35,040 nucleotides of DNA from assembly GCA_019038645.1 (NCBI GenBank), contig JAHOYT010000037.1, positions 1 to 35,040 on the forward strand, given 5' to 3'. Positions 7,877-30,469 of the stretch are shown here, piece after piece. Source of the stretch: Bacteroidales bacterium (GTDB lineage: Bacteria > Bacteroidota > Bacteroidia > Bacteroidales > UBA12077). The translations under genes and the position numbers were made by a program. Under the pieces are notes generated by a model. The model had not been told where the DNA came from. It made no database searches and worked only from the letters and a program-made list of their open reading frames with translations. The first letter of the stretch is position 1. Each line of letters starts with the position of its first letter.

Positions 7877-8737
7877 TTAATAATTAAACCATTCTTCAGA
7901 TCTTAACCAATCAGGAGCTTCATTAAATGTTTTATTATTTCCGTCAGGAGGTGGAAGGTATTCCTGCCCGCCATGGTATTTAAAGAATTTCTTTTGCACA
8001 GCTAGTATTCCCGAAGAGAAAATTCCGGTGGGATCGCGTGGATCAACTTCACGAACTATGTTATGAATCCAGTTATTTTTTCTTGAATAAGGGCATACTG
8101 CCAGACATACTCTACAGCCTCTAGAATGGCTTGTTGCAACAGAGTTCCATACTGTATAGCATTTGTCATGATTAATCTTCCATCGTTTGTATCCCCGAAT
8201 AACTTCTTCGGGTTCATCCGTAAAACTAATTGCCCCGCTTGGGCATTCTTCTGCACAAATTTTACATTTATTGCAAAATTCCTTTATTCCTATGTCTATT
8301 GGTTTGTCAGGTTCTAAAGGCATGTCAGTTGATACTGCTGCCAGTCTTGTATTTGCTCCCAATTCAGGTGTAACTAATATACCATTTCTGCCTTGTTCAC
8401 CTAATCCGGCATCAATAGCTAAAGGAGGCATAACGAGATCATAATTTACAGGTGGCACGTGTGCACGTGCAGAATAACCTATTTCTTTTAAAAATACTTC
8501 GAGTTTACCCGAAATATATCTTAACATAGAATAAGCATCATAAGAAGTTCCATAAGTTGGATTTGCATACATTGAATCCCATTCGTGGGGAACTGCGATT
8601 ACTATTGCATTTTTCCAATGTTTCGGGACATCAAAATTTGTTTTTCCTGTTCCACGTACATATCCCTGATATACCCACTCTTCTTTTATTTTTGTAACTC
8701 CTACAAGAGTAGCACCAAAACTATGTGCAATTTTTTT
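7877..8737 (-). CDS. rdhA: Reductive dehalogenase catalytic subunit RdhA, C-terminal part (frameshifted from N-terminal part)
   Basis: This frame continues the RdhA protein after the A7 run at 8731-8737, starting 'KKIAHSFGATLVGVTKIKEE'. There is no start codon at the junction; the first in-frame ATG is at 8572. The corrinoid-binding core is followed by two ferredoxin motifs typical of RdhA: 'CNKCKICAEECPSGAISF' (CxxCxxCxxxCP) and 'GCRVCLAVCPYSRK', preceded by 'WNSVATSHSR'. Joined with the upstream half, the protein is about 491 residues, a normal RdhA length. RdhA reductively removes halogen from organohalides using a cobamide cofactor and two [4Fe-4S] clusters. Epoxyqueuosine reductase shares the fold but lacks the TAT signal and the RdhB/C neighbours. 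The substrate cannot be deduced. Confidence 0.88.
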   Translation of the reverse strand, partial: KKIAHSFGATLVGVTKIKEEWVYQGYVRGTGKTNFDVPKHWKNAIVIAVPHEWDSMYANPTYGTSYDAYSMLRYISGKLEVFLKEIGYSARAHVPPVNYDLVMPPLAIDAGLGEQGRNGILVTPELGANTRLAAVSTDMPLEPDKPIDIGIKEFCNKCKICAEECPSGAISFTDEPEEVIRGYKRWKINHDKCYTVWNSVATSHSRGCRVCLAVCPYSRKNNWIHNIVREVDPRDPTGIFSSGILAVQKKFFKYHGGQEYLPPPDGNNKTFNEAPDWLRSEEWFNY

Positions 8738-9354
8738 ATTAATTCGGAGCCATGCTTAGGCGATTTCAACTCCATCTGGTTGTCCCGGATACCTTCGAAA
8801 TCAGAAACTTCAGGAGAATCTTTAGGTTCGGGCGGGAAAGAAGACCGGCCTCTCATTGTACTTGAATGGGACGTTGACCAAGCATCTGCTAATATGTACT
8901 GATCTTTATATTTGGGCCAGTTTTCATGTTGTTCCTTCGATTTTTTTATGGCTTTTTTAAATTCTACGAGTGCTCCGGGATCTTTAGTGTAATATGTTTT
9001 TAACGGTTCCGGAAGATTTTTATGACCCTGGTCCAATGACCATTTTGGTGTTGAATTATCACGAGGATACATCAACCTGTACATTTCACCATTTCTTTTA
9101 AAAATGTTTTCAATATATTGAATCCTCTTAGGTTTTCTAACTTTTACATAAGTAGGTTCAGACACAAGGAATGGGTTTCGGTTAAAGAACTGATCTTTTC
9201 CATAAAACTTTCGGCCATATCCCGTGTAGCTGTCTTTATCTTTACCGGCTGCTAATCCTGCTCCTGCAACTCCGGCAAGACTTAAAACCCCTCCGGCAAG
9301 TCCGGCAGTTTTAAAAAAGTTTCGACGATTTAGTCTGGATTTAATATTTGCCAT
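8701..9354 (-). CDS. rdhA: Reductive dehalogenase catalytic subunit RdhA, N-terminal part with TAT signal
   Basis: The ATG at 9354 is chosen over 9393 because it puts the twin-arginine motif 'NRRNFFK' at residues 9-15, followed by a Gly/Ala-rich hydrophobic region ('TAGLAGGVLSLAGVAGAG'). The protein is therefore predicted to be exported folded with its cofactors. The mature part contains RdhA-like segments ('SEPTYVKVRKPKRIQYIENI', 'YILADAWSTSHSSTMRG'). The frame reads into a premature stop at 8701 after 'SELIKK', giving a meaningless tail 'LHIVLVLLL'. The -1 frame from the A7 run instead continues as good RdhA. No other damage is seen in either half, so this is one gene with one lesion, a site of recoding, or a base-call error. 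Confidence 0.88.
   Translation of the reverse strand: MANIKSRLNRRNFFKTAGLAGGVLSLAGVAGAGLAAGKDKDSYTGYGRKFYGKDQFFNRNPFLVSEPTYVKVRKPKRIQYIENIFKRNGEMYRLMYPRDNSTPKWSLDQGHKNLPEPLKTYYTKDPGALVEFKKAIKKSKEQHENWPKYKDQYILADAWSTSHSSTMRGRSSFPPEPKDSPEVSDFEGIRDNQMELKSPKHGSELIKKLHIVLVLLL
8731..8737 (-). other. Frameshift site in rdhA: A7 slippery heptamer
   Basis: On the coding strand the zero frame reads at-A AAA AAA ttg, the X XXY YYZ layout of a classic -1 slippery site. A -1 shift here, or one extra A in the transcript, exactly restores the RdhA frame (next codon 'att' for Ile of 'KKIAHSF'). Confidence 0.85.
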
Positions 9355-9377
9355 AACGGAACTCTTTGTGTGGGTTT

Positions 9378-9408
9378 CAAATATAGTTAACAATAGTTAC
9401 AATTGAAA
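9378..9408 (-). promoter_or_regulatory. Predicted rdhA promoter (Bacteroidota type)
   Basis: On the minus strand a -7 element TATATTTG (9385-9378) matches TAnnTTTG. A -33 element TTTC (9408-9405) lies 19 bp upstream, one mismatch from TTTG. It sits 24 bp before the rdhA ATG. Confidence 0.6.
9384..9400. promoter_or_regulatory. Candidate MarR operator within rdhA promoter
   Basis: TAGTTAACAATAGTTAC holds two TAGTTA boxes exactly 10 bp apart between the -33 and -7 elements. More copies of the box occur in the same divergent intergenic region: CAGTTAA near 9437, and an inverted pair AGTTAA/TTAACT at 9457-9462 and 9473-9478. Placement suits repression by the divergent MarR protein, but binding is inferred. 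Confidence 0.4.
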
Positions 9409-12087: not shown

Positions 12088-12184
12088 GAGTAATTGAAAT
12101 CAATATTTAGGTAAAAAAGCGAATAATTTTTTAAAATTATTGAGAAAACTTTTTTTAAAAAGGAAATTGTTAAAACCCAGTCAC

Positions 12185-13612
12185 ATGAAATTTTACCCGG
12201 AACAATACAAAATTAAAGACCAGAGAATGAAACCGTTCATTGATCCTAAAGAAATTTGGGATTACATTAATAATACCGGATCTACAAAAGAACGAGTACG
12301 TGAAGTAATTGCAAAATCGCTAAATAAGGAGCGTTTGAATTTGGAAGAAACGGCTGTATTAATTAATGCAACAGACCCGGAATTAGTAGAAGAAATTAAA
12401 CAAGGGGCCAAAGATTTAAAAACGAAAGTTTACGGAAACAGGATTGTTCTTTTTGCACCTCTATATGTTGGGAATAAGTGTACAAATAATTGTAAATATT
12501 GTGGTTTCAGAGTAACAAATAAAGATGCTGTTCGCCAAACTCTGTCTGATAAGGAATTAATTGCCGAAGTTGAGGCACTTGAAGATAATGGACAAAAAAG
12601 ATTAATATTGGTTTATGGAGAACATAAGCATTATTCTCCTGAGTTTATTGCCGAAAATGTAAAAACTGTGTATGGAGTTAAAAAAGGAAACGGAGAAATA
12701 AGAAGAGTAAATATTAATGCTGCACCATTAGAAATTGATGGATTCAGAACTGTAAAAGATGCAGGTATTGGTACATATCAGGTTTTCCAGGAAACATATC
12801 ATCCTGATGAATATGCAAAATATCATTTAGGTGGTAAAAAAAGAGATTTTGACTATCGTTTAACTTCTTTGGACCGTGCTCAGGAAGCAGGACTGGATGA
12901 TGTTGGAATCGGAGCTTTGTTTGGATTATACGATTGGAGATACGAAGTATTGGCCATGGTTCGCCATACAAATCATTTCGAAGCGTGTTATAATGTTGGG
13001 CCGCATACATTATCATTTCCCAGAATTCAGGATGCATCTACTATAGACGTTGATCCAAAATACATAGTAAATGATGATGATTTTGTTAAATTAATTGCAA
13101 TACTAAGACTGGCAGTTCCTTATACAGGAATGATTTTAACTGCACGTGAATCAGAACAAGTGCGTCGTGAAGTAATGGCTTTTGGCGTTTCTCAAATTGA
13201 TGGAGGAACAAAATTGGAGTTGGGTTCTTATCACGAAAGTCAGAATGAAGAACAAAACTTAAATCGTGAGCAATTTGCTATTAATGATAACAGATCATTA
13301 AGCGAGATTATAGATGAGTTAATAGAAAATGAATATTTACCTTCGTTTTGTACAGCATGCTATCGATTAGGAAGAACAGGAGAACACTTTATGGAGTTCT
13401 CGGTTCCGGGATTTATTAAACGCTTTTGTACACCAAATGCTATTTTAACCTTAGCTGAATATATTGAAGATTATGCAACACCTGAGGTGGCAAAAAAAGC
13501 CTGGAAAATTATCGATAAAGAAATTAAGGGTTTGGAAAGTGAAAAAGTAATTGGTCAGCTGAACGAAAGAATTGAGAAAATTAGAAATGGCGAAAGAGAT
13601 ATGTATTTTTAA
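12185..13612 (+). CDS. hydG: [FeFe]-hydrogenase maturase HydG (tyrosine lyase)
   Basis: 475 residues, normal for HydG. ATG at 12185 gives the typical beginning 'MKFYPEQYKIKDQRMKPFID'; an upstream in-frame TTG (12140) would add an atypical basic leader. The radical SAM cluster motif is 'CTNNCKYC' (Cys99, 103, 106). The C-terminal auxiliary-cluster region 'CTACYRLGRTGEHFM...FC' supplies the Cys ligands of the second [4Fe-4S] cluster. HydG cleaves tyrosine to p-cresol, CO and cyanide and builds the Fe(CO)2CN synthon for the H-cluster. The 'YGVKKGNGEIRRVNINAAPL' and 'HTLSFPRIQDAS' segments are typical of HydG and separate it from ThiH. hydE lies 18 kb away at 31514-32611; hydF and the hydrogenase itself are not in the window. 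Confidence 0.96.
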   Translation: MKFYPEQYKIKDQRMKPFIDPKEIWDYINNTGSTKERVREVIAKSLNKERLNLEETAVLINATDPELVEEIKQGAKDLKTKVYGNRIVLFAPLYVGNKCTNNCKYCGFRVTNKDAVRQTLSDKELIAEVEALEDNGQKRLILVYGEHKHYSPEFIAENVKTVYGVKKGNGEIRRVNINAAPLEIDGFRTVKDAGIGTYQVFQETYHPDEYAKYHLGGKKRDFDYRLTSLDRAQEAGLDDVGIGALFGLYDWRYEVLAMVRHTNHFEACYNVGPHTLSFPRIQDASTIDVDPKYIVNDDDFVKLIAILRLAVPYTGMILTARESEQVRREVMAFGVSQIDGGTKLELGSYHESQNEEQNLNREQFAINDNRSLSEIIDELIENEYLPSFCTACYRLGRTGEHFMEFSVPGFIKRFCTPNAILTLAEYIEDYATPEVAKKAWKIIDKEIKGLESEKVIGQLNERIEKIRNGERDMYF

Positions 13613-14499: not shown

Positions 14500-14877
14500 A
14501 TGGAAGATTTATTAATACAAAGTACGGAATCGACTCCTCAAATTGATTTTAAGAAATCAGGTCAATTGAGTATTAAAGGAAAATCATTACCTGAAGATCC
14601 TAAGAGATTTTATACTTCACTTTTTAAATGGGCTGAGGAGTTATCAGCAGAAGAAGTTCAACTCGATGTTAAACTGGAGTATGTTAATACTTCTTCATCG
14701 AAAAATATAATAGAGCTGATAAAAGTTGTTGATAGAAGCCAAAAAATCAGACATTTAAATTTGAATTGGTATTATGAGATTGATGATACGGATATGTTAG
14801 AATTTGGAGAAATGATTGAACGAAGTTTGAAAAGGACAAAAGCCAGCTACATTGAATGTGAAGATATTGATGATTAA
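14500..14877 (+). CDS. SiaC-family (DUF1987) regulatory phosphoprotein
   Basis: 125 residues. The sequence matches the DUF1987/SiaC family: 'TPQIDFKKSGQLSIKGKSLP', the 'KLEYVNTSSSKNIIELI' segment, and 'LNWYYEIDDTDMLEFGE'. In Pseudomonas, SiaC switches a diguanylate cyclase depending on phosphorylation of a Thr in the equivalent 'NTSS.K' loop, set by the SiaA phosphatase and SiaB kinase. Here the candidate residues are Thr64-Ser67. No siaA, siaB or cyclase lies in the window, so the partner is unknown and the output may be different. It stands alone between the hydG-cluster terminator and a convergent qmoC, with a palindromic repeat after its stop. Confidence 0.85.
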   Translation: MEDLLIQSTESTPQIDFKKSGQLSIKGKSLPEDPKRFYTSLFKWAEELSAEEVQLDVKLEYVNTSSSKNIIELIKVVDRSQKIRHLNLNWYYEIDDTDMLEFGEMIERSLKRTKASYIECEDIDD

Positions 14878-15004: not shown

Positions 15005-16105
15005 CTATTTTAATTTTCTATTAATCGATGCTGCATATACCATTGCCACAACTCTAAATAATAAATGGCCAAATTTTGTGTAAGGCAAATAAATAATGAC
15101 AAACCAAACACAAACCAAATGAAAAAAATACAAGTGGTAAGCCAATCCCCAATTTATAAATCTTGCAGCTTCTACTATTACTCCCGAAACTGTTAATAAA
15201 AAGAGAGAAACTAAAAATAACCAATCGTTATAAGTGCTGTTCCCAAAATCTTTTTTATTGAAAATTCGGTTTGCAATCATAATTCCAAGTCCCACAAATA
15301 ACATTATTGCGGCTATATTTCCAATTATCTTAAAAGGATTCTTAAATTCTAATGGATAATTGTGTGTTACTGCTGCATAAATGGCAAAAGTTGTAACAAA
15401 AAGCAATAAAATAAATCCGTAGAAAACTAAAAAGTGTGCAATTTTTCTTGTTTTTTGGGCTGTACATGTACTGAAATTGGAGTGAAGAATAATTTCTTTT
15501 CTTATGGAGAATAGATTCTTAATAAAACTTCCCGTTGGTTTTAAATCCGGATCTTGCTTTTTCATATCGTTCCGGAAGTTTCTTAATCCTAAAATTCCAA
15601 GTCCTATTGTTAAAAACCATAAAAAAGAGAAAGAGCTGTTAAGCCAGGCATGTGGAAAAAATTTGGAGTAATTAACAGGACCTTCAGGAATTTGAAATGT
15701 TCCTGCCATAATTAATATTGCCGAAATAATTATTACAGGTATTAATATTGCCACAGGAAACCATTTAGGATCATTCAAGATTTTACCTAAAAATTTAGGT
15801 TTAGCGTAATGCTGGTAACTAATTTCGCGAACAGCAGAAAGAACATCAGCAGGTTTTACACCACGCGGGCAATAAGTGCTACAATCTCCACATTGATGAC
15901 AAAGCCAAATATCCGGGTTTCCGATTAATTTATCTTTCATTCCCCAGCCAGCCCAAATCATTTCTTTTCTCGGAAATGGCCTCTCATCAGGAGCAAGAGA
16001 ACAAACCACAGAGCATGTTCCGCACTGCATACATTCATTCAAAGAAGAATTACTTATCCTTTTTAGTTGCTTTTTAAATTTTATATCAGGACTAACTTCA
16101 ATCAT
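15005..16105 (-). CDS. qmoC: Quinone-interacting membrane-bound oxidoreductase subunit QmoC
   Basis: 366 residues. The N-terminus is an HdrC-like ferredoxin domain with two cluster motifs, 'CMQCGTCSVVC' (Cys25-35) and 'CHQCGDCSTYCP' (Cys69-79). About six hydrophobic membrane segments follow, resembling the cytochrome b-type NarI/HdrE subunit, with histidines suitable for heme b. QmoC anchors the Qmo complex and exchanges electrons with menaquinone, passing them through QmoA/QmoB to AprBA. It is last in the aprBA-qmoABC order, 81 bp after qmoB. The neighbour on the other side (SiaC gene) is convergent and unrelated. Length is close to that of characterised QmoC proteins (about 380). Confidence 0.93.
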   Translation of the reverse strand: MIEVSPDIKFKKQLKRISNSSLNECMQCGTCSVVCSLAPDERPFPRKEMIWAGWGMKDKLIGNPDIWLCHQCGDCSTYCPRGVKPADVLSAVREISYQHYAKPKFLGKILNDPKWFPVAILIPVIIISAILIMAGTFQIPEGPVNYSKFFPHAWLNSSFSFLWFLTIGLGILGLRNFRNDMKKQDPDLKPTGSFIKNLFSIRKEIILHSNFSTCTAQKTRKIAHFLVFYGFILLLFVTTFAIYAAVTHNYPLEFKNPFKIIGNIAAIMLFVGLGIMIANRIFNKKDFGNSTYNDWLFLVSLFLLTVSGVIVEAARFINWGLAYHLYFFHLVCVWFVIIYLPYTKFGHLLFRVVAMVYAASINRKLK

Positions 16106-16186
16106 TGTTTCAAATTTCAGGTTTTTGGTTCTGTGTTATAGTCATATAAACTTTAAACTCGGAACTTTGAACTCGTAACTAATTGT

Positions 16187-18301
16187 TTACATATCTTTAA
16201 ACGGATTTGGACCGATTAATTCAATCTCTTCCACGTAATCATTAATTATATCAGGAATTTTATGATAATCTGTGATTTCAACAAATTCAGTTCTTATTCT
16301 TTCCGGTTCAAGCATCATTGTTTCTAAAGTTTCCTGAAGGTTTTCGCCACGGGTTTCGGTCAGTTCACTACCATGAATGAAGTGACACTGATAATCATCG
16401 CCTGGCTTACATCCAATTTGCAATATCCCGTCAAATCCCTGCGACAGAGCATCCGAGATCCATACTTTATTAACTGACCCTATACATCTTACAGGAATAA
16501 CTCTTATGTAAGGACTATATTTTAACCCTTTTTGTCCGGCCATATCAAAAGCAGGATAAGCGTCATTTTCACACACAAATACCAAAATTCTTGGTTTTTC
16601 TTCAAACTCATCAGGTATTTCAACCGACTTAATCATAGCCGAAACACTGTTAATTGAATAATCGGCAAAGCTAATAACTCGCTCCGGACACGAACCTACA
16701 CATATTCCACAACGTCGACAACGATTAGGATTCTGAATTGGAGTTCCTTTTTCGTTTTCATCATATGCTCCAAATGGACATTCTTCTGTACAGCGTTTAC
16801 AATCGGTACAACGATCCAGATATAGTTCAGGATAAGATTTATCGCCTGATCGTGGGTGAACAGCCTCTCCGCGTTTGGTTGCTTCAATTGTCTGAATAGC
16901 TTTTAACATGGCTCCGGTGGCATCTTCTTTGCTTGAAGCAATATCCATTGGTGCTCGCAAACTTCCGGCAGCATAAATTCCTGTTCGTCGTGTTTCGTAA
17001 GGGAAACAGATGAAGTGTGAATCAGAGAAATTGTATTTTAATTCTGGTAAGCCTTTCCCTAAACGGTAATTTAGATTTAAATCTTCGGTTCCGTTCGGAA
17101 CCATTCCTGTTGCCAAAACAATCATATCAACAGAAAGAGAAATGTTTTCTCCTAACAAGGTATCTTTTACATTGACTTTTATATCGTTATCGTTTTCAGT
17201 TATTTCTTCAATTTCGCCTTTTGTAAAAAAGATTTGATCATCCTTTTGTACTTCTTTGTAAAACTCTTCATATAATCCTAAGGTGCGAATATCTTTATAA
17301 ACAACAAAAACGTTCGATTCAGGACTCAAATCACGAATATATTTGGCTTGTTTTAAGCTTGTGCCGCAACAGAATGATGAACAATAGGGGAGATGATCTT
17401 TATCCCGCGAACCTGCACATTGAATGAATAATATGTTTTTTGGTAATTCTTTATCAGGATTATTTTTTACTAAATCTTCAAATTCAACATTTGTTAAAAC
17501 GTTCGGAATTCCATACCCTAGATGAGATAGTTTGCTTGCATCATAAGGTTTCCAACCTGTTGATGTAACAATTGAACCAACCGTAATTTTTTCTTCTTTT
17601 CCGTTATTCAGAAACACTTCAAATTGGCCGGGCTGACCGTCAATTTTATTTATTGTGGTTGAAATATGAATTTTAATATTCTCAAATTGTTCTAATTCCT
17701 TGATTTTTTCCTCTATTTCAGGATCTATCAAAGTATTGTAAGGAACAGTATATGGAATTTGTTTATGCAGCTTGTTTAACCATCCACCTAATCTCTCTTC
17801 TTTTTCAACTATATGAACTGTGTATCCTGCTTTTGCTCCTTCAATAGCTGATGTAATTCCTGTAATTCCACCACCAACAACCAAAATTTCAGAACTAATA
17901 CTTTCGGCTATAAATGGTTTTGGAACATCAATATTATTCACTTTCGTTACGGCCATTCGAAGATAATCTTCTGCAGCCATTTGCGTATCTTCATTTTCAG
18001 GTTCGTAACACCATGCTACTTGTTCTCTTAAATTTGCTCTTTCAAGAATAACATCTTCAGGGAAATCAAATACTTCAGTTTTTGCCCGGGGTGAGCATGC
18101 AGCAATAATCACTCTGTTAAGATTTTCACTGGCTATATCATTGTTAATTAAATCAACTCCTTCAACAGAACATAGCGAAGAATGATTTTTACAAATGCTA
18201 ATATTTTGTTCCGAAGAAGCTACCTGATTAAGTTTTTCAATATCTATGCTTTTGCCAATTTCGCAACCTGAACAAATATATACGCCAACTTTTTTATCCA
18301 T
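16187..18301 (-). CDS. qmoB: Quinone-interacting oxidoreductase subunit QmoB (HdrA-like flavoprotein with MvhD-like tail)
   Basis: 704 residues. There is an N-terminal HdrA-like segment with Cys residues ('YICSGCEIG', 'IIAACSPR'), then an FAD-binding fold 'EILVVGGGITGITSAIEGAK' (about 140-160). The HdrA-type segment 'FIQCAGSRDKDHLPYCSSFC' follows, then two ferredoxin motifs 'CTDCKRCTEECPFGAYDE' and 'CRRCGICVGSCP'. The C-terminal ~130 residues are an MvhD-like domain ('VRCIGSVNKVWI', 'IGCKPGDDYQCHFIHG'). This HdrA+MvhD fusion is the QmoB signature. QmoB is thought to be the soluble subunit that contacts AprBA. Gene order and the 3-bp gap from qmoA indicate translational coupling. Confidence 0.95.
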   Translation of the reverse strand: MDKKVGVYICSGCEIGKSIDIEKLNQVASSEQNISICKNHSSLCSVEGVDLINNDIASENLNRVIIAACSPRAKTEVFDFPEDVILERANLREQVAWCYEPENEDTQMAAEDYLRMAVTKVNNIDVPKPFIAESISSEILVVGGGITGITSAIEGAKAGYTVHIVEKEERLGGWLNKLHKQIPYTVPYNTLIDPEIEEKIKELEQFENIKIHISTTINKIDGQPGQFEVFLNNGKEEKITVGSIVTSTGWKPYDASKLSHLGYGIPNVLTNVEFEDLVKNNPDKELPKNILFIQCAGSRDKDHLPYCSSFCCGTSLKQAKYIRDLSPESNVFVVYKDIRTLGLYEEFYKEVQKDDQIFFTKGEIEEITENDNDIKVNVKDTLLGENISLSVDMIVLATGMVPNGTEDLNLNYRLGKGLPELKYNFSDSHFICFPYETRRTGIYAAGSLRAPMDIASSKEDATGAMLKAIQTIEATKRGEAVHPRSGDKSYPELYLDRCTDCKRCTEECPFGAYDENEKGTPIQNPNRCRRCGICVGSCPERVISFADYSINSVSAMIKSVEIPDEFEEKPRILVFVCENDAYPAFDMAGQKGLKYSPYIRVIPVRCIGSVNKVWISDALSQGFDGILQIGCKPGDDYQCHFIHGSELTETRGENLQETLETMMLEPERIRTEFVEITDYHKIPDIINDYVEEIELIGPNPFKDM

Positions 18302-18304
18302 TTG

Positions 18305-19525
18305 TTATTTGATTTGTATTGCTTTTAATGCAGCAGCTGTCGCATCTTTTACCGATGATGAAACATCCATTGGTTTTCTGCTACACGCTACGGGATAAAT
18401 ACCGTCGGTTTGTAAATCGGTTATAAAATTATTCTGATCTTTGTTTAAGTTTATACTTATATCTGACGGAACAATGCCTGTTGCCAGAACAACCATTTCA
18501 GCTTTGTAATTCATCTTTTTACCTGAAAGAATATCTTCGGCTTCAAGAATTAGATTATTGGATTCTGTTTCAGTGATTTTGCCAACCTTTCCTTTAACTA
18601 ATCCGATGTTTTTATTGTCTTGTACTTTAATTAAAAAATCCTCATTACGACCGGTAACACGCATATCGATATAAAAAATTTTGATTTCGCTTTTTGGATA
18701 CAATTCCTGAATAGTTAAGGCATGTTTTAAAGATGCCGAACAACAAACAGCTGAACAATAAGGTAAATGATTTTCGTCACGGGAACCTGCACACTGAACA
18801 AAAGCTAATTTTTTAGGCTCCGAATTATCTGACGGTCGCAGTAATTTGTTTTCACCAACACCATTTGACGTAATGAATCTTTCAAACTCAACATTGGTAA
18901 TTATATTTTTTGATGTTGAATAATTCAGATTATCAATTTTAGAAGCATCATAGTTTTTCCATCCTGTGGCAACAACAACAGAGCTAACTTCTATATCAAT
19001 AATTTCTTCCTTTGCTGATAAGTTAATAGCGTCGTATTCACACACTTCAACACATTTATTACATGATTCTTTTTTACAATATTCATCATCAATATTGAAT
19101 TTGTATGGAAAAGCCATTTCATGTGGTAAATAAATTGCTTTTGTTTTTGTGAATCCATAATTGAATTTATCTGGTCTTTCTTCGGGACAAACATCAAGAC
19201 ATTTTCCACAAGCTGTACAATTATTTTTTACATATTGAGGAGCTGTTTTGAGCTTAACTTTAAAATTTCCTTTTTCACCTGAAATCTCCTGTATTTCAGT
19301 TGAAGTATAATATTTGATTCGTGAATTTTGTTTTATCCTTCGAAAGTTAATCTCCAGTCCACAAGTTGGAGGGCAAAGTTTAGGAAAGTAGTTATTAAAT
19401 TTAACCACATTACCACCCAAATAAGGATTTTTTTCGATAAGAATAACATCTTTCCCAACTTCGGCAATTTCAACGGTAGTAGTAACACCGCTCATTCCTC
19501 CGCCAATAACCAATACAGGCTTCAT
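18305..19525 (-). CDS. qmoA: Quinone-interacting oxidoreductase subunit QmoA (HdrA-like flavoprotein)
   Basis: 406 residues, normal for QmoA. The FAD-binding motif sits at the N-terminus: 'VLVIGGGMSGVTTTVEIAEV'. It is followed by 'NYFPKLCPPTCGLEINFRRI', a ferredoxin motif 'CTACGKCLDVCP', a second Cys group 'CNKCVEVCEYDAI', and the HdrA-type 'FVQCAGSRDENHLPYCSAVC'. It lacks the MvhD tail that marks QmoB. QmoA is a flavin/Fe-S subunit of the complex linking menaquinone to APS reductase. It lies between aprA and qmoB in the canonical order. HdrA of methanogens is excluded by size and by the apr neighbours. Confidence 0.94.
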   Translation of the reverse strand: MKPVLVIGGGMSGVTTTVEIAEVGKDVILIEKNPYLGGNVVKFNNYFPKLCPPTCGLEINFRRIKQNSRIKYYTSTEIQEISGEKGNFKVKLKTAPQYVKNNCTACGKCLDVCPEERPDKFNYGFTKTKAIYLPHEMAFPYKFNIDDEYCKKESCNKCVEVCEYDAINLSAKEEIIDIEVSSVVVATGWKNYDASKIDNLNYSTSKNIITNVEFERFITSNGVGENKLLRPSDNSEPKKLAFVQCAGSRDENHLPYCSAVCCSASLKHALTIQELYPKSEIKIFYIDMRVTGRNEDFLIKVQDNKNIGLVKGKVGKITETESNNLILEAEDILSGKKMNYKAEMVVLATGIVPSDISINLNKDQNNFITDLQTDGIYPVACSRKPMDVSSSVKDATAAALKAIQIK

Positions 19526-19639
19526 TCTAAATAATTAAAAATTAATAATTAAGAATTAAAAATGAGTTAATTATATCAATTAAACTTCTCTCCGAATAAT
19601 TATTCATTCTTAATTTTTCATTGTTAATTAAAGAATTGA

Positions 19640-21529
19640 CTAGGTCAATTCTTTAATGTCTCGTTTTATCATTTCCCATTCGCCGGTTTCAGGATTCCAT
19701 TTACAGTTTGCAAATGCTTTCCACTCTTCTTTCATTTTAGGATGATCGGTTCTGAAATAATATCCTGGCCAACGTGTTTCTTCACGGAATAACATAGTTC
19801 TGATGTGAGATTCGGCTTGCCACATTCGATGAACATTCTCCCAGCAACGCATTAATTCATTTGTATCTTTTGCGGCGAGTTTTTCGGAATCTTCTTTCAT
19901 TAATTCTAAAAACTCAAGGCCTTTTTCAAGTAATGCTTTTGATGTTTTAAAATTTACAGAAGCACCACCGGCATATTCATCCATAATTTTCTGTAAGCGG
20001 AACATAAACATTTTTGGCTTGATGAAATTAGGATTTACATCTTCATCATTAGCGTAATCTTTATGCTCTTCGAATGTTGTAAGTGGCTGAAGAATTTTTT
20101 CTTTTAATTTCTTAATTTTTTCTTCATCAAAGCTTACGGAATCAGGATTATCAACAATAAATGCTAATGCAGCTTTTGCAGCAATCCGACCTTCCGTAAA
20201 CGAACCGGATGAAAATTTATGAGATGAAGCTCCTGAAGCATCACCAGCTGCAAATAAACCTTTTATAGTTGTCATATTATCGTAACCCCAGTGATAATCA
20301 TCCGATGGTGATAAATCTTTTGGCCCGCTAACCCAGGCACCTGAAGCACCTGAATGTGAGCTAATAAAATAAGGTTCGCATGCAGAAATTTCCGATGGAC
20401 TTTCTTCAGGAGAAATATTATGTGAAGCCCAGTTTAAGGCCTGACTCACAGTCATATCTAAGAAATCTTCCCATGCTTCTGATTCCAACTCTTTCATTTT
20501 TCGTTTAGCTTCTTTTTCATCAGTGATATCAGCCATTAATTCTTTAATAGCTTCATCTGTTCTCATATAGATAGGGCCGTTACCTTCTTCTAACTCCTTA
20601 AACATTAAATAATTACGAAGATTAGTTGGAGTTGGTTTTTCGGTTCCGTAAGGTGCCCAGTTTTCTAATTCAGATGCACGGGTTTTCATATAATCTTCGC
20701 CTTTAGCATTAGTTGCTTTTGCTTTGAATAGCAAGAACCACGCACCAACAGGGCCATACGAATCTTTAAAACGTATTGGAACAAAACGAACTTCCTGACA
20801 GGTCATTTCGGCACCAGCTTTAAGTGTAAAATATGTACTTGCTCCGGAGTTAAATGGCGGATACCATGAACGTCCTAATCCTTCACCAACCGAACGTGGA
20901 CGGAAAATATGCACTGCACCACCCATAACATCAAGTACAGCATTAGCTTTAAATATGTAAAATTTATTTTCACGAACACTAAAACCAGCTGCACCAACAC
21001 AACGATCACCATCCATAATAGGTTCTGTGATGAATATTCTTTCGTAATATTCACCATTTTCGCCAAGTTCTTTTAGTGCATTTTTAGCAGCTTCAGAAAC
21101 AATGTTTTTATACGATTCACCATGAATCATTATTTGCCAGCGACCTTCATTTACATAATTTCCTTCTTCGTCTTTCCAAATTGGTAAACCCCATTTTTCG
21201 AACAGGTGAACTGATGAATCAACATGACGGGCAATGTTTGCAACCAAATCGTCGCGGGTAATACCCATTAAATCATTTTTTACATAATCGATATAATCTT
21301 CAATAGTATTTTTGCCATTTTTCAAACCTAAATACAGGTTTATTGCAGAAAGTCCCATCGCAACAGCACCACTACGTTCCATAGATGCTTTATCAACAAC
21401 AGTTACTTTTTTGTTATGTTGCTGTGCCCAGTGAGCAGCTTCAAAAGCGGCACCACAAGCAGCCATACCACCGCCAAGGATCAATAAATCAGTTTCTATA
21501 ATTACAGTTTCGAAATTCTCAGTTATCAT
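19640..21529 (-). CDS. aprA: Adenylylsulfate reductase alpha subunit AprA
   Basis: 629 residues, usual for AprA. It has an N-terminal FAD-binding fold 'LGGGMAACGAAFEAA' (about 18-32), then AprA-specific segments: 'ERSGAVAMGLSAINLYLG', 'GRSWYPPFNSGASTYF' (Trp222), 'RFVPIRFKDSYGPVGAWFL' (about 248-266), and the His-containing 'YFISSHSGASGAWVSGP'. It catalyses APS + 2e- to sulfite + AMP, or the reverse, in the cytoplasm with AprB. Fumarate reductase and aspartate oxidase share the FAD fold but lack these blocks. It is 89 bp after aprB and 114 bp before qmoA. Phylogeny would be needed to separate reductive from oxidative lineages; the qmoABC neighbours fit a reductive type but are not proof. Confidence 0.96.
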   Translation of the reverse strand: MITENFETVIIETDLLILGGGMAACGAAFEAAHWAQQHNKKVTVVDKASMERSGAVAMGLSAINLYLGLKNGKNTIEDYIDYVKNDLMGITRDDLVANIARHVDSSVHLFEKWGLPIWKDEEGNYVNEGRWQIMIHGESYKNIVSEAAKNALKELGENGEYYERIFITEPIMDGDRCVGAAGFSVRENKFYIFKANAVLDVMGGAVHIFRPRSVGEGLGRSWYPPFNSGASTYFTLKAGAEMTCQEVRFVPIRFKDSYGPVGAWFLLFKAKATNAKGEDYMKTRASELENWAPYGTEKPTPTNLRNYLMFKELEEGNGPIYMRTDEAIKELMADITDEKEAKRKMKELESEAWEDFLDMTVSQALNWASHNISPEESPSEISACEPYFISSHSGASGAWVSGPKDLSPSDDYHWGYDNMTTIKGLFAAGDASGASSHKFSSGSFTEGRIAAKAALAFIVDNPDSVSFDEEKIKKLKEKILQPLTTFEEHKDYANDEDVNPNFIKPKMFMFRLQKIMDEYAGGASVNFKTSKALLEKGLEFLELMKEDSEKLAAKDTNELMRCWENVHRMWQAESHIRTMLFREETRWPGYYFRTDHPKMKEEWKAFANCKWNPETGEWEMIKRDIKELT

Positions 21530-21618
21530 AATTCTATAAGTTTCCAGTTTAACGTTAAAAGTTTAAAATAAAGAGCGTTGTGTCTTAAGTCTTGATACTC
21601 AATACTTGATATTATGAT

Positions 21619-22053
21619 CTATTTCTCATATAAATCTGTTCCCAACGATTCCGGTTCTGTTCTGAGTAAAGGGCTTTTTAAATCATCGGTTCCTGTTTCC
21701 ATATCAGATTTTGGGTCTATGCTACCTTCGGGAGTTGTTCTTATGGGGAATTTGAATCTTTTTATTTTTTTGTTCCGGAATTTTACCGACCACATAATAG
21801 AGTCCGTACTTCTTAATGGTTGAACTACAGCGCCTAAAGGCATGAAGTCTGCGTATCCCCGAATTTCTATAGCCTGTGTTGGACATATTTTAACGCAACT
21901 GTAACATTCCCAGCACATATCAACAGCGCGGTTATATGCTTTATTTTTTTCTTTATCTAAAACCATTAAATCGTTCGGGCAAATATACTGGCAGGCAGTT
22001 TTATCCTGAGCTTTGCAACCATCACACTTTTCACTTATTACGAAGCTTGGCAT
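21619..22053 (-). CDS. aprB: Adenylylsulfate reductase beta subunit AprB
   Basis: 144 residues. It starts 'MPSFVISEKCDGCKAQDK', the near-invariant AprB opening. Two [4Fe-4S] cluster motifs are present: 'CDGCKAQDKTACQYICP' (Cys10, 13, 21, 25, with the insertion typical of AprB) and 'CWECYSCVKICP' (Cys47-57). The C-terminal tail ('PIRTTPEGSIDP' and beyond) is the extension that wraps AprA. It passes electrons from Qmo to the AprA flavin. It is first in the apr-qmo cluster, so the promoter should lie in the 280 bp upstream, where Rex-like half-sites are seen. Confidence 0.96.
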   Translation of the reverse strand: MPSFVISEKCDGCKAQDKTACQYICPNDLMVLDKEKNKAYNRAVDMCWECYSCVKICPTQAIEIRGYADFMPLGAVVQPLRSTDSIMWSVKFRNKKIKRFKFPIRTTPEGSIDPKSDMETGTDDLKSPLLRTEPESLGTDLYEK

Positions 22054-22333: not shown

Positions 22334-22654
22334 TTATTCTTGATCTTCTTGTTCTTTAGAATTACCTTGCATTAACTTAGGTAGTTTTTTCTTATAAGCT
22401 ATTACAAAGATTCCTGTTGAATAAAGTGCTAAATTGAAAATACTTACTGAGAATATTCCTACTGAGAATATTCCAATAGAAAAAATTCCTGCAGAAAATT
22501 TGCCTGCTGCAAACACACCAATTGCAAAATCACCTGCCGCAAAGTAGTTAAAGGCAAAATCTCCTGCACTAAACATACCTGAATAAGTGTAATTTAAAAT
22601 TAAACCTGCAATTATTAAAACTGCTGCAACTAATAGATACCATACTTTTTTCAT
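22334..22654 (-). CDS. Small membrane-associated protein with five-residue periodicity
   Basis: 106 residues. An N-terminal hydrophobic helix (about 4-25) is followed by a run of about 60 residues with Phe every fifth position: 'FSAGDFAFNYFAAGDFAIGV' then 'FAAGKFSAGIFSIGIFSVGI'. The tail is polar and acidic ('GNSKEQEDQE'). The five-residue spacing with small residues between the aromatics recalls a pentapeptide-repeat beta-helix, but with Phe, Gly and Ala it may instead be a membrane-embedded glycine-zipper-like structure. I do not recognise a named function. It stands alone between apr-qmo and a LytTR regulator gene, both on the same strand. A short inverted repeat CAAACA-TG-TGTTTG (22675-22688) lies just upstream. 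Confidence 0.65.
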   Translation of the reverse strand: MKKVWYLLVAAVLIIAGLILNYTYSGMFSAGDFAFNYFAAGDFAIGVFAAGKFSAGIFSIGIFSVGIFSVSIFNLALYSTGIFVIAYKKKLPKLMQGNSKEQEDQE

Positions 22655-23814: not shown

Positions 23815-25452
23815 TTATTCGTGATTATTCGTATAATCCGTAATAATCTGATTTCTTAAATCAAGAAACATTTTCGTAACATCATTCATTAATCCGTTTG
23901 AATAATTTGTTAAATATTCCTGAGCAGCCTTTGGACTTTTCTTATATAATTTTTTTGCTTCATCCTCTATTGCTTTTTGATTTTCAAACATCTTAGCTTC
24001 AAAAGGAGTTCTAACTTTTCTTACATCTTCAGCAATTGGTTGAAATTTAAGATTGGCAAGATTATCAACAAAATCAATTGCCCATCGCGCTGATTTCTCA
24101 TCGTATTTATCCGGATCATAAATATTATAAGTTTCAGCAACAGATAAATTCCCGGCATAAATAGGTACATAAGGACTAAAGTATGGATTATCAAGATATA
24201 CCCAATAAACTCCGCCAATTTCGTCAGGTAACCAATCCCGAAGCTGAAGAACCATTCCGTAATGTCCGCGATGACGCGCGACCGGACGACGATAAGTAAT
24301 TTTTAATAGCTTTCGTAAATCACTGCTCGGGAATGGAGTTGCTAAAGGACTTTTTGCGTAACCACCTTTTCCGTCAGGTACGAGCCAGTTTGGATCATAA
24401 GTCATATCGTAGATTGTACCTTCATAGGTTGAACGCTGGAAAGCAATTACATCCTGAACTGATATTTTCTCTTCAGGTACAACTGAGAATGGATAAATTG
24501 AAACAGGTTCTACAATTTGGAAATATGGCTGAATTCCTTTATAAGGATTTTCGTTTGGAAAACGATCAGGCCATTCTTTTAAATTTGGAACAAAAGTTTG
24601 GTGAAATAGCCAGAATCTGCTTGTTGCATATTCAACAGGTAATGGAGTATAAGCATCCTGCCAAATAAAAGGTATTCCTGATGTTGGATCGTACCATCCT
24701 CTATCAATAGCTTCCTGCATGTAATTATCGGAAACCATGAAATTATCTTTGTCGTTGGCATCAATTTGTTTAATTATGCTCCAGTTTGGAATCATAGTAG
24801 CCTGATCTTCAGGTAATCGTTGCGCAGCCCATATTGCTCCGGGTTTACCACTTTCCGGGTTCCAGCCTTTGCCAGTTCCGAAAACTTCAAAAACCCAGAT
24901 TTCTTCTGTATCGGCTATAACAAGCGTTTCAGATCCATCACCACTTGATGGTAAAAAGCCGTATTTAATCATTAAGTCGCCGATAAACTGAACTGCTTCT
25001 CTGGCATTTTTATAGCGCTGTAAAGCAAAAATTTGTGCTTGCTCAATGGTCATTATTTGTTTTCCGTTTTCACGGGTACAAGTAAGTTCTTCTCTTTGAG
25101 CAGTTGTGCTTTCTCCAATACCAAGCTGAAATTCATTTACATGTGAATAGGCTGATTGGAAATACTTAAATGTTTTTTCAACCTGTGGAATATATCCTAA
25201 TATTATTCCATCGTCATTTAAATCACGGTCTGCATCCTGAATTCCCCAATAAACGGCAGTTTTTTCGCCTGGTTTAAAAGTTTGTGCCGGAACAACAAAT
25301 ATTCTTGAATCAGGTCCTGTATCGGTATGTGAAATAATATTTGAACCATCGGCTGATGCTTTTTTCCCAACAACAATTATGGTACATGCGATAGCACTGT
25401 ATTGATATCCAAGTGTAAAGATTATTAGAATTGATAAAATTTTTCGTAACAT
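23815..25452 (-). CDS. C69-family dipeptidase (PepD-like), exported
   Basis: 545 residues from ATG 25452. An in-frame upstream start at 25500 overlaps the previous gene and spoils the signal peptide. The signal sequence 'MLRKILSILIIFTLGYQ' leads directly to 'ACTIIVVGKKASADGS', in which Cys23 would become the N-terminal nucleophile of an Ntn-hydrolase after processing, as in family C69. Other family segments include 'SHTDTGPDSR', 'IGESTTAQREEL', 'GDGSETLVIADTEEIWVFEV' and 'RHRGHYGMVLQL'. It hydrolyses dipeptides, probably in the periplasm. Its place at the end of an operon with Xaa-Pro aminopeptidase and hydroxyproline dehydratases suggests it helps release hydroxyproline-containing dipeptides, which is inference. 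Confidence 0.88.
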   Translation of the reverse strand: MLRKILSILIIFTLGYQYSAIACTIIVVGKKASADGSNIISHTDTGPDSRIFVVPAQTFKPGEKTAVYWGIQDADRDLNDDGIILGYIPQVEKTFKYFQSAYSHVNEFQLGIGESTTAQREELTCTRENGKQIMTIEQAQIFALQRYKNAREAVQFIGDLMIKYGFLPSSGDGSETLVIADTEEIWVFEVFGTGKGWNPESGKPGAIWAAQRLPEDQATMIPNWSIIKQIDANDKDNFMVSDNYMQEAIDRGWYDPTSGIPFIWQDAYTPLPVEYATSRFWLFHQTFVPNLKEWPDRFPNENPYKGIQPYFQIVEPVSIYPFSVVPEEKISVQDVIAFQRSTYEGTIYDMTYDPNWLVPDGKGGYAKSPLATPFPSSDLRKLLKITYRRPVARHRGHYGMVLQLRDWLPDEIGGVYWVYLDNPYFSPYVPIYAGNLSVAETYNIYDPDKYDEKSARWAIDFVDNLANLKFQPIAEDVRKVRTPFEAKMFENQKAIEDEAKKLYKKSPKAAQEYLTNYSNGLMNDVTKMFLDLRNQIITDYTNNHE

Positions 25453-25480
25453 ATTATTTGTTTTTAATTGATTTCTAAAA

Positions 25481-26524
25481 TTATCTAAATATAAAACCAT
25501 TTTTTAAAGGATCGTTAGGATCGAAATAAAATTCATTTTGTCCGGTAATAAATGCTGTTCCTGTAACTTCAGGAATAACTGCTTTGTGTGGGCCGAATTC
25601 AGTTGTTTCGTGAACACTAACATCCATTGTGCTTCCCAGGATGCTTTCAATGGTTATTTTTTCACTGGGTTTTAATTCATTTTTAGCATGATACAAAGCT
25701 GCCCTTGCGCTTACTCCCGAGCCGGTAGCTGACCTGTCTAATTCTCCTTCAGCAAATATGCAAACATTTCGGCTGTGATTTCCTGGATTTTTTGCTTTTC
25801 CTGTAAAAATAGTTCCATACAAAAAACTTAAATCTTCCTCGTAAGGATGTTTTATTTCAAAATTATCCATTATTGCATATTTAATTTTTCTGCCATAATC
25901 GATAAGTCTGGAATAATCCGATTCATCCAATTTTAAACCTAATTCATCTGCATCACAAAATGCATAAAAAGCTCCACCATAAGCAATGTCAAATTTAGCT
26001 TTGCCAATTTCAGGAATATCAACTTCCTGATCTTTCAAATAAAGAAACGATGGTACGTTTTTAAAAGATACTTTTTGAACTATACCGTTTTCACGGAAAG
26101 CTTTCACGTAAATTTTTCCTGGCGGTGCATTTATAATTAATTCTGGTTCGTTTCCTTCTTTTTGGATCATTCCTGTGTCTAAAACCAGTTTGGTTAATGC
26201 AATAATGGCATGACCACACATGGTGCTGTAACCTTCGTTGTGTAAAAAGAAAGTTCCAAAATCTGCATCATCTGTTGTAGATTCTGTTATAATTGCACCA
26301 TACATGTCAGCATGGCCGCGTGGCTCCAATAGAGTTCCGGTTCTTATATAATCGTAGTTATCTCTGAAATATCTTCTCTTTTCAAGAATAGCAGAACCTT
26401 TTATTTCGGGCAAGCCATCTGTATAAACTCTTAATGGTTCACCTCCGGTATGCAAATCAATGGTTTTAATTTTCAACCAGTCTTTGGGTGGATTCCAGTT
26501 CCAATTTTTGAGAGTGCTGTTCAT
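25481..26524 (-). CDS. Proline racemase-superfamily enzyme, probable trans-3-hydroxy-L-proline dehydratase
   Basis: 347 residues. The fold is that of the proline racemase family, with the first active-site motif 'MCGHAIIAL' (Cys103). In the second motif, 'DRSATGSGVSARAALYH', Thr267 replaces the second Cys used by proline racemase and 4-hydroxyproline epimerase. Cys/Thr pairs are known in trans-3-hydroxy-L-proline dehydratases (EC 4.2.1.77), which remove water to give a pyrroline-2-carboxylate. The N-terminus 'IKTIDLHTGGEPLRV' and 'GHADMYGA' also fit that group. Its operon with a trans-4-hydroxyproline dehydratase and peptidases supports collagen-type hydroxyproline use. 4-hydroxyproline 2-epimerase activity is less likely because of the Thr. 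Confidence 0.85.
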   Translation of the reverse strand: MNSTLKNWNWNPPKDWLKIKTIDLHTGGEPLRVYTDGLPEIKGSAILEKRRYFRDNYDYIRTGTLLEPRGHADMYGAIITESTTDDADFGTFFLHNEGYSTMCGHAIIALTKLVLDTGMIQKEGNEPELIINAPPGKIYVKAFRENGIVQKVSFKNVPSFLYLKDQEVDIPEIGKAKFDIAYGGAFYAFCDADELGLKLDESDYSRLIDYGRKIKYAIMDNFEIKHPYEEDLSFLYGTIFTGKAKNPGNHSRNVCIFAEGELDRSATGSGVSARAALYHAKNELKPSEKITIESILGSTMDVSVHETTEFGPHKAVIPEVTGTAFITGQNEFYFDPNDPLKNGFIFR

Positions 26525-26548
26525 ATTCTTTTATTTTCATATTTATAA

Positions 26549-26602
26549 TGTCACTCTGAGCTTGTCAAGGAGTGCTGTCATACTTCGACAGGCTCAGTAT
26601 GA
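26549..26602. repeat. REP-like palindromic intergenic element (copy 2)
   Basis: GTCACTCTGAGCTTGTCAAG pairs with CTTCGACAGGCTCAGTATGAC across a short centre, forming a long imperfect hairpin. It interrupts the operon between the Xaa-Pro aminopeptidase gene and the racemase-family gene and could lower downstream expression. It shares the 'CTGAGC' core with the copy at 14920. Confidence 0.75.
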
Positions 26603-26611
26603 CTTATTTTT

Positions 26612-28003
26612 CTAGAATGCTTTAGCTCTTTCATTTTCCACATCCTCAATAGATTTTGCGAGAGGCTTACCAAGAATTTTATAGCCTGTTTCAGTGATTA
26701 AAATATCTTCTTCGTTTCGGGTACCACCAAAATCTTTATACTCTTCAATTTTGTTATAATTTATAAATTCACTGAATTTATGTTGTGATTTCCACAGATC
26801 AATTAATTCTGGTATAAAATATATTCCTGGTTCGATAGTAAGTACATATCCTGGCTGTAATTCACGACCTAATCTTAATGATTTTAATCCAAATAAAGTG
26901 CTTTTTGGCTGACCTGCATAACCCACATATTGTTCTCCAAGATTTTCCATATCATGAACATCCAGTCCCATTAAATGTCCTGTTCCACAAGGGAAAAATA
27001 AGGCATGTGCTCCTGCATGAATAGCTTCTTCTGTATTTCCCTTTGTAAAACCAAGATCTTTTAATCCGTTAAAAATAGTTCGGGCAGCTGTAAAATGAAT
27101 TTCTTTAAAATTAATTCCGGGTTTCAGAGCTTCTATGGCTGCATTATGTCCATTTAAAGCAATTTGATAAATTTCTTTTTGTTGTTCTGTAAATTTTTTT
27201 GATATCGGAAATGTACTTGACATATCACCTGCATAATGAAGCTTGTTTTCAGCTCCGGCATCAAGTAAAAACAAATCACCTTCTTTTGTGGTATTACCAT
27301 GATAATGATTATGTAGAGTTTGCCCGTTAATTGTTGCAATAATTGGGAATGAAATATCTCCACCGGCCGCCTGCGCAACTTCATGAACTTTAGCTGCTAC
27401 CTGAGCTTCACTCATACCTGGTTTTGCATAACGCATTGCTGCAAGGTGCATATCCGTAGTTACACTTACAACCTGTTCCAGTTGCTCAATTTCTTCGGCA
27501 GACTTAATATTTCGTTGTTCCCCAATTGCTACAATTAAATCTGCTGATGCAGACATATTGGTTTCATTTATTGGAATATTTAACCAATTATAAAGTTTAA
27601 TTTGATGTTCAGGTCTGTAAGTAGGTAAAAAATGAATTTTACGATTTTTATTTTTTGCAGATTTTATAAAATCCAGCAATTCTTTCATTTGACCTGTGTG
27701 TTGAATTCCGGCCTTTTCACTACGTTCTTTAATTGTTGGTTGAGAACCCATCCAAACAATATGATCAATTGTTAAATCATCTCCGAAAATAGAGTCTTTA
27801 TCTTCATCTAAATCAATTACACCCAATAATCCCGGATAATCTAATCCAAAATAATAAAGGAACGTACTATCTTGTCTAAAATGATATGTATTGTCAAGAT
27901 AGTTCATTGAGCTTTCTTCGTTTCCCGGGAAAAGTAAAATGCCTGAATCAAATTGACTTTTTAATTGTTTGCGCCTGTTAATATAAGTTTCTTTACTAAA
28001 CAT
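26612..28003 (-). CDS. pepP: Xaa-Pro aminopeptidase (M24B family)
   Basis: 463 residues. An N-terminal creatinase/AMP_N domain (about 1-150, 'INRRKQLKSQFDSGILLFPG') is followed by a pita-bread catalytic domain. The five metal ligands are visible: Asp in 'LLDAGAEN', Asp in 'YAGDMSSTFP', His in 'GTGHLMGLDVHD', Glu in 'LTIEPGIYF', and Glu in 'GGTRNEEDILIT'. It removes N-terminal residues preceding proline or hydroxyproline and needs two divalent metal ions, often Mn2+. No signal peptide, so cytoplasmic. It lies 17 bp after the hydroxyproline dehydratase gene, fitting a role in freeing hydroxyproline from imported peptides. Confidence 0.93.
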   Translation of the reverse strand: MFSKETYINRRKQLKSQFDSGILLFPGNEESSMNYLDNTYHFRQDSTFLYYFGLDYPGLLGVIDLDEDKDSIFGDDLTIDHIVWMGSQPTIKERSEKAGIQHTGQMKELLDFIKSAKNKNRKIHFLPTYRPEHQIKLYNWLNIPINETNMSASADLIVAIGEQRNIKSAEEIEQLEQVVSVTTDMHLAAMRYAKPGMSEAQVAAKVHEVAQAAGGDISFPIIATINGQTLHNHYHGNTTKEGDLFLLDAGAENKLHYAGDMSSTFPISKKFTEQQKEIYQIALNGHNAAIEALKPGINFKEIHFTAARTIFNGLKDLGFTKGNTEEAIHAGAHALFFPCGTGHLMGLDVHDMENLGEQYVGYAGQPKSTLFGLKSLRLGRELQPGYVLTIEPGIYFIPELIDLWKSQHKFSEFINYNKIEEYKDFGGTRNEEDILITETGYKILGKPLAKSIEDVENERAKAF

Positions 28004-28020
28004 GATATTGTATTTTTAAT

Positions 28021-30384: not shown

Positions 30385-30469
30385 AATAAAGTTCAAAGTT
30401 TCGGGTTGAATGTTTAAAGTTCAGGAATCATAATTTTTCATTATTAATTCTTAATTTTTAATTCAAATG

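Follow-up and report, generated by a model that had tools for sequence, protein, structure and literature searches.

The stretch of DNA analysed here (the window) is the entire 35,040-base contig C37 of the Bacteroidales draft genome G000 (GenBank assembly GCA_019038645.1), which comprises 3.39 Mb in 102 contigs and is 96.9% complete with 0.18% contamination. In the open reading frame (ORF) list of the window, five uninterrupted genes run along the minus strand from 22053 to 15005 in the order aprB-aprA-qmoA-qmoB-qmoC (Table 1). The first two encode adenosine 5′-phosphosulfate (APS) reductase and the last three QmoABC. It is established for this family, according to the available part of the source, that AprBA-QmoABC couples the menaquinone pool to APS and sulfite (PMC10504309).

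Table 1. Features of the window, with model scores in bits (aa, amino acids; FAD, flavin adenine dinucleotide; SAM, S-adenosylmethionine; Tat, twin-arginine translocation).
Feature	Coordinates	Strand	Basis and remarks
aprB, APS reductase beta subunit	21619..22053	(-)	144 aa, two 4Fe-4S clusters; TIGR02060 203 bits, cut-off 136
aprA, APS reductase alpha subunit	19640..21529	(-)	629 aa, FAD; TIGR02061 878 bits, cut-off 642
qmoA, HdrA-like flavoprotein subunit	18305..19525	(-)	HdrA2 model 364 bits, below its cut-off of 1100
qmoB, HdrA-like flavoprotein with C-terminal FlpD/MvhD domain	16187..18301	(-)	HdrA2 model 434 bits, below its cut-off of 1100
qmoC, HdrC-like Fe-S domain and membrane domain, quinone side	15005..16105	(-)	NF038018 391 bits, cut-off 300
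SiaC-family gene	14500..14877	(+)	PF09345 96.7 bits; convergent with qmoC; no known sulfur link
106-aa ORF (orf106), no family matched	22334..22654	(-)	upstream of aprB in closest relatives
[FeFe]-hydrogenase maturase of the HydG/HydE pair	12140..13612	(+)	
[FeFe]-hydrogenase maturase of the HydG/HydE pair	31514..32611	(-)	
Hydroxyproline-use cluster	23815..31270	(-)	HypD, radical-SAM protein, proline racemase-family enzyme, M24 peptidase, C69 dipeptidase
Glycyl radical enzyme, hydroxyproline dehydratase	28021..30396		NF043068 1248 bits, cut-off 1100
Reductive-dehalogenase-like, upstream ORF	7877..9393	(-)	weak Tat signal
Reductive-dehalogenase-like, downstream ORF	6433..7596	(-)	Fe-S motifs

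The assignment of AprBA rests on curated model scores and on conserved active-site residues. Positions N64, E128, W222, R253, F265, L266, R305 and H392 of AprA, which we take to be active-site positions, do not vary among the 37 Bacteroidales rows of the alignment; for N64 this holds in 36, the remaining row being truncated before it. All 33 Bacteroidales rows of AprB keep its eight cysteines. AprB also matches the C-terminal domain PF12139, and AprA can be aligned over almost its full length with that of Archaeoglobus (PDB 1jnr; E 9.5e-233). QmoABC is recognised by two HdrA-like subunits, one of them with an FlpD/MvhD domain (PF02662, 137 bits, at the C-terminus of QmoB), and an HdrC/membrane protein beside aprBA. 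Of the three, QmoC alone is identified by a Qmo model; the identity of qmoA and qmoB is drawn from their likeness to HdrA, the FlpD domain, context and trees, and qmoA in addition adjoins aprA, matches genes beside aprBA in other lineages and takes a corresponding place in its tree. Relative to the same-genus genome G673, the ratio of nonsynonymous to synonymous substitution rates (dN/dS) is 0.040-0.066 for the five genes, values that are approximate at a dS above 1 (aprA, 0.045, with dS saturated); with more distant relatives the ratio was often undefined. Judged by its sequence, the module is intact and is maintained under purifying selection. A first-pass annotation of the window had proposed this five-gene identity, and the curated models, the alignment to 1jnr and the conserved residues bear it out; the Bacteroidota setting that it gave the module is also right.

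The order SiaC-qmoC-qmoB-qmoA-aprA-aprB-orf106-LytTR-C69 is repeated in G673 on a contig of 1.28 Mb, with extra ORFs between aprB and C69, and most of the SiaC-to-C69 order is also found in the metagenome-assembled genomes (MAGs) CSMAG_801 (L015) and PL23b_bin.85 (L016). The SiaC-family gene is a conserved neighbour in the closest relatives, occupying the same place in L131 (G673), L015, L016 and L025; orf106 is kept in L131 and L015, with fragments in L016. An assembly chimera or contamination might be suspected from the guanine plus cytosine (GC) content of the module, 34.9% against 31.5 and 31.9% in the flanks, and from the third-position GC content (GC3) of aprB, which at 0.34 exceeds that of the five flanking genes tested (0.17-0.24). 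However, the GC3 of aprA and the qmo genes (0.22-0.25) is close to that of the flanking genes, the contamination estimate is low, and the same arrangement stands in three other assemblies. An artefact of this kind is extremely improbable, and it was rejected on the arrangement shared with independent assemblies, which here stands in for read-coverage mapping. Two further members of the genus, G490 and G589, have no aprA, and their HydG regions contain neither the module nor the SiaC-family gene.

Across a phylum-wide sample, aprA (E 1e-50) is found in 13 of 395 genomes, namely G000, 11 members of family f19 (probably Chlorobiaceae) and G357, in agreement with the earlier remark that the trait is not a standard one in cultured Bacteroidota. 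Within the window's order it is found in 20 of 295 genomes, 19 of which score above the family cut-off, and these are spread over 12 families and 13 of 183 genera. Among the best 80 of 571 AprA matches in the named collection, the top 19 (77-95% identity) are Bacteroidota MAGs by title, the one exception being a MAG titled Chlorobiota that is placed within the same AprA clade; the matches that follow are at most 72% identical and come mostly from other phyla. CSMAG_1401 (L017), a MAG titled Chlorobiota, bears a Bacteroidales-type module, and its label may be wrong.

In an AprA tree of 102 rows, the 37 Bacteroidales rows form one clade (support 100 in the Shimodaira-Hasegawa-like approximate likelihood ratio test, SH-aLRT), which is subdivided by host family (f63, f70, f130, f157 and f1). 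The same single split appears in the trees of QmoB (29 versus 44 rows), QmoC (21 versus 25) and QmoA (32 versus 49), with support of 100, 100 and 98. All trees are quick searches with support by SH-aLRT only; AprA rows with 480 or fewer aligned residues, for example the split AprA of G468, were left out, and seven pairs among the 37 rows are one contig under two identifiers. The nearest outsiders to the Bacteroidales AprA clade are one MAG each of Planctomycetota, UBA2156 and Myxococcales, and f19 lies far away. An origin from Chlorobia was rejected, the AprA of the f19 genomes being 51% identical and on a distant branch. Since AprA, QmoA, QmoB and QmoC each form one clade, the trees suggest one old acquisition of the whole module, followed by descent and frequent loss, as the simplest history. 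The horizontal acquisition put forward in the first-pass annotation is thus plausible only as an old event for the order, given the single clades and the grouping of AprA by host family.

The partners of sulfate respiration were sought in the 20 aprA-bearing genomes of the order and in the first 20 listed genomes of the order sample without aprA, and the Sat and DsrA tests included two positive controls from the phylum, G357 and G106. Sat (TIGR00339) was found in none of the aprA-bearing genomes, in one of those without aprA (G407, below the cut-off) and in both controls, and DsrA (TIGR02064) in neither set of 20 and in both controls. Siroheme sulfite/nitrite reductase (PF01077, NIR_SIR) was found in 0 of 20 genomes with aprA and 1 of 20 without, with matches in 11 of 14 named control genomes. 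The enzymes by which dissimilatory sulfate reduction is recognised (Sat and DsrAB, of which DsrA was searched) and siroheme sulfite reductase were therefore not found in the aprA-bearing genomes. Because Sat, DsrA and siroheme sulfite reductase are missing from the results for all 20, sulfate respiration and Dsr-based disproportionation, both of which had been entertained on first inspection of the window, are unlikely, and reverse-Dsr sulfur oxidation is unsupported. The earlier observation was that sat and dsr do not lie at the locus; the genome-wide searches for Sat and DsrA likewise found neither in the 96.9%-complete G000 nor in the 19 related aprA-bearing genomes. The Sat-like match of G407 (L116, L157; G407:C221) reaches 267 bits in a 630-aa frame that lies beside cysH.

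Could these genomes belong to canonical sulfate reducers or sulfur oxidisers whose sat and dsr genes are hidden in assembly gaps? Each of the 20 genomes is fragmented into between about 10 and 520 contigs, and G000 is 96.9% complete. Against this, Sat and DsrA are at 0 of 20 in genomes that are 80-100% complete, and the surroundings of the module differ between lineages. In the fetched loci (tblastn, one query each), sat accompanies apr in 48 of 66 loci from outside the Bacteroidales but in none of the 39 Bacteroidales loci, and dsrA in 15 of 66 and 0 of 39. Incompleteness was rejected as an explanation across the 20 genomes, and we regard it as very improbable. For cysH the pattern is inverted, with 0 of 66 non-Bacteroidales and 15 of 39 Bacteroidales loci (11 of 32 without repeated contigs). 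These counts are of loci of unequal length; seven of the 39 Bacteroidales loci are second copies of a contig, and G357 stands twice among the 66. This exchange of sat for cysH as a neighbour is the clearest sign that the module operates in another setting here; the first-pass annotation had not anticipated a connection with cysH and cysDN.

CysH (NF002537, E 1e-20) is found in 185 of the 295 genomes of the order, in 20 of 20 with aprA against 165 of 275 without (Fisher p 6.7e-5, kinship not corrected). The CysH of G000 scores 266 bits against the thioredoxin-dependent APS reductase model TIGR02055 (cut-off 235) and has the CC and CxxC pairs that we take to be the 4Fe-4S signature of APS-type enzymes. 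CysD-length matches to PF01507, assigned by match length, occur in 17 of the 20 aprA-bearing genomes. G000 carries cysC, cysD and cysN together on contig C65 and cysH on C24, and thus holds the CysD, CysN and CysH of an assimilatory-type APS route. A cysH gene less than 10 kb from aprA is present in 11 of the 20 genomes, from 6 of the 12 families. In G594, G496 and G567 it is on the same strand directly upstream of aprB with a gap of 230-430 bases, and in G476 it is likewise upstream on the same strand with one ORF intervening; it is divergent from apr in G570, G468, G661 and G408 and lies 8-10 kb downstream in G517, G614 and G401. In G000, G673, G523, G624 and G669 it is on a different contig from aprA, and the apr contigs of G446, G491, G545 and G619, each under 7 kb, are uninformative. 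Of 28 recurrent neighbour clusters, 13 were annotated, and among these no sulfur link besides cysH was seen; they comprise muropeptide-recycling, Rho, Mur-ligase-like, LolCE-like, chloride-channel, antiporter, regulator, glycosyl-hydrolase-like and unknown genes.

The five proteins are those of the Sat-AprBA-QmoABC cascade of sulfate reducers, down to the conserved residues; the difference lies in the company they keep, with no Sat, DsrA or siroheme sulfite reductase in the 20 Bacteroidales and with cysH instead of sat nearby. The AprA-like 3′-phosphoadenosine 5′-phosphosulfate (PAPS) reductase of Methanothermococcus (PDB 8a8o), presumably assimilatory in role, is a distant AprA relative (329 bits, against 777 for 1jnr). 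Chlorobia, in which Sat-AprBA-QmoABC operates with reverse Dsr, also have AprBA beside a QmoA relative (L003, L004, L012), but their AprA is the distant one described above, and Sat and DsrA are present in G106, the single genome tested. The Kapabacteria (Ca. Thermonerobacter, UBA2268) are non-phototrophic Bacteroidota relatives with apr and qmo, but according to the available parts of the sources they have sat and dsr, and they form a separate AprA branch (PMC6338057, PMC10591310). G357, in which Sat and DsrA are present, is perhaps of this kind. Apr and/or Qmo have been reported in 563 genomes without the Dsr pathway, and assimilation or sulfite detoxification has been discussed for them; there, in the text available, AprAB occurs with Sat, no CysDN or cysH linkage is described, and the main text does not contain "Bacteroid" (PMC10504309). 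The proteins themselves are ordinary, and Dsr-less Apr/Qmo is already known. A Bacteroidales clade of this kind, a CysDN partner and a cysH linkage were not met in the available portions of the literature searched on Bacteroidota apr/qmo, assimilatory Apr, and sulfonolipids and CysH.

From the observed genes, which are intact and under purifying selection, from their single clade and from which partners were and were not found, we infer an electron carrier, a direction and a fate for sulfite. In the reading that we favour, at a probability of about 0.45, a functional AprBA-QmoABC would exchange electrons between the menaquinone pool and APS/sulfite, fed by CysDN and running reductively, with sulfite made for biosynthesis rather than for respiration. 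CysDN, a guanosine triphosphate (GTP)-dependent ATP sulfurylase, would make APS in place of Sat, and electrons from menaquinol would pass via Qmo and Apr to reduce APS to sulfite, alongside the thioredoxin-dependent CysH. Sulfite would then be an end product for biosynthesis, with cysteate and sulfonates the best candidates. The reductive direction is the better bet because CysDN is the only APS source found and the nearby CysH makes sulfite from APS; neighbouring enzymes with APS in common would be expected to work in one direction. With no sulfite reductase found, the sulfite would be consumed unreduced. The direction, initially left open, is not proven, but it is narrowed by the negative results for Sat, DsrA and siroheme sulfite reductase. 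In general terms, the APS/sulfite step seems to have been turned to another use, probably that of making or handling sulfite. A fuller history of biosynthetic, quinone-driven sulfate reduction, in which an ancestral member of the Bacteroidales took up the full module once, lost Sat and Dsr, re-plumbed it to CysDN beside CysH and came to produce sulfite destined for sulfonates, drawing on the menaquinol pool, is a tentative proposal that we would back less readily than the reading itself.

Cysteate is a possible sulfite sink, as suggested by gene content. Cysteate synthase (TIGR03844) scores above the cut-off in G000 (471 bits, cut-off 325), in 10 of the 20 aprA-bearing genomes and in 7 of the 20 without aprA. 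In G624 (L180:6486-10911), a pyridoxal phosphate (PLP)-dependent gene resembling threonine and cysteate synthases, with a Zn-ribbon seen by eye, follows cysH-cysD-cysN, and in G404, which lacks aprA, a similar PLP gene lies next to a cysC-like ORF (named by eye) and cysD (L234:90-3593); both score below all cut-offs. Cysteate synthase is, in the available part of the source, the first step of sulfonolipid synthesis in Chryseobacterium (PMC11211663). Although CysH is widespread in the order, a single genome of the 40 tested has a siroheme sulfite reductase, whereas CysH is present in 31 of them. Given this near-lack, the fate of CysH-made sulfite is a general question for the order.

Several observations weigh against a reductive, CysDN-fed role. 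CysD was not found in G446, G476 and G545, which are 85, 92 and 94% complete. TIGR03844 does not track CysH, being present in 13 of 31 genomes with CysH and 4 of 9 without among the 40, and even at E 1e-10 there is no match in 8 of the 20 aprA-bearing genomes. The same-genus G490 and G589 keep cysCDN, cysH and TIGR03844 without aprA; CysH would fill this role by itself, so that such a route can do without Apr. G000 itself has cysH on another contig, the gap between cysH and aprB, where the two are adjacent, leaves room for separate promoters, and elsewhere the two are divergent or as much as 9.7 kb apart. Finally, the potentials of APS/sulfite and menaquinone lie close together, so the enzyme would be reversible.

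The main rival is the reverse reaction. Sulfite, adenosine monophosphate and menaquinone would be converted to APS and menaquinol, with APS removed by CysC, ADP sulfurylase, a HIT-type APS hydrolase or reversed CysDN, and the electrons would go to fumarate or some other acceptor. Such disposal of sulfite fits the finding that DsrA and siroheme sulfite reductases, potential sulfite consumers, were not found in the 20 genomes, and CysC is present in G000. In green sulfur bacteria the cascade works in the oxidative sense, and a role of AprAB in detoxifying sulfite has been put forward (PMC10504309). A PhsA-like molybdoenzyme, which might free sulfite from thiosulfate, occurs in at least 12 of 20 genomes with aprA against at least 69 of 275 without (p 0.003, kinship uncorrected; at most three candidates were scored per genome, making the counts lower bounds). 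However, neither G000 nor G673 yielded a PhsA-like gene, no candidate reaches the family cut-off, and thiosulfate reductase was rejected as a necessary partner. In G000 two molybdoenzymes were found, L196 scoring above the formate dehydrogenase cut-off. Sat, which normally provides an energy-yielding second step, is also at 0 of 20, and a sulfite-making cysH nearby would create a futile cycle. The AprA clade, moreover, lies far from Chlorobia and among sequences of sulfate-reducer lineages, a placement qualified by the oxidative genes reported in some members of UBA2156, a genus among its nearest outsiders (PMC10591310, part available). On balance we consider sulfite disposal somewhat unlikely, and less so than any other alternative.

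Complete sulfate reduction would be compatible with the searches if CysDN replaced Sat and if the reduction of sulfite fell to a non-siroheme enzyme that has escaped recognition, such as a multiheme cytochrome. CysD is indeed present in 17 of 20 genomes, and the reductase searches covered DsrA and siroheme types only. No non-siroheme reductase was noticed in the 13 annotated clusters among the 28 of recurrent neighbours. CysDN spends extra GTP, which would make respiration costly, and the flanks of the module in G000 look fermentative (HydG, HydE, HypD). This possibility is a distinctly poor one.

These results have implications for environmental surveys, in which aprA is a marker for sulfate reduction or sulfur oxidation. 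Because neither Sat nor Dsr was found in this Bacteroidales clade, its aprA or qmo reads may be mistaken for sulfate respiration. With aprA-bearing and aprA-free members side by side, one genus provides a clean natural setting in which to ask if Apr-Qmo can function in assimilation or in detoxifying sulfite, both of which are raised in PMC10504309.

The flanks of the window contain HydG, HydE, HypD with its radical-SAM partner, a proline racemase-family enzyme, an M24 peptidase, a C69 dipeptidase and a Rex-like regulator. The [FeFe]-hydrogenase maturases HydG and HydE lie one on each side of the apr-qmo module. In the hydroxyproline-use cluster, the radical-SAM protein is likely the HypD activase. 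A sulfite-releasing glycyl radical enzyme in the window was ruled out: the glycyl radical enzyme scores 530 against a sulfopropanediol dehydratase cut-off of 1000 and is a hydroxyproline dehydratase. To go by these flanks, G000 probably lives anaerobically by fermenting peptides and hydroxyproline. Further along the contig, a reductive-dehalogenase-like protein (TIGR02486 175 bits, cut-off 160) is apparently split over two frames; the gene looks frameshifted, either a pseudogene or a sequence error. It is adjoined by an FMN_bind/Fer4_5 protein, which presumably resembles NosR or RdhC.

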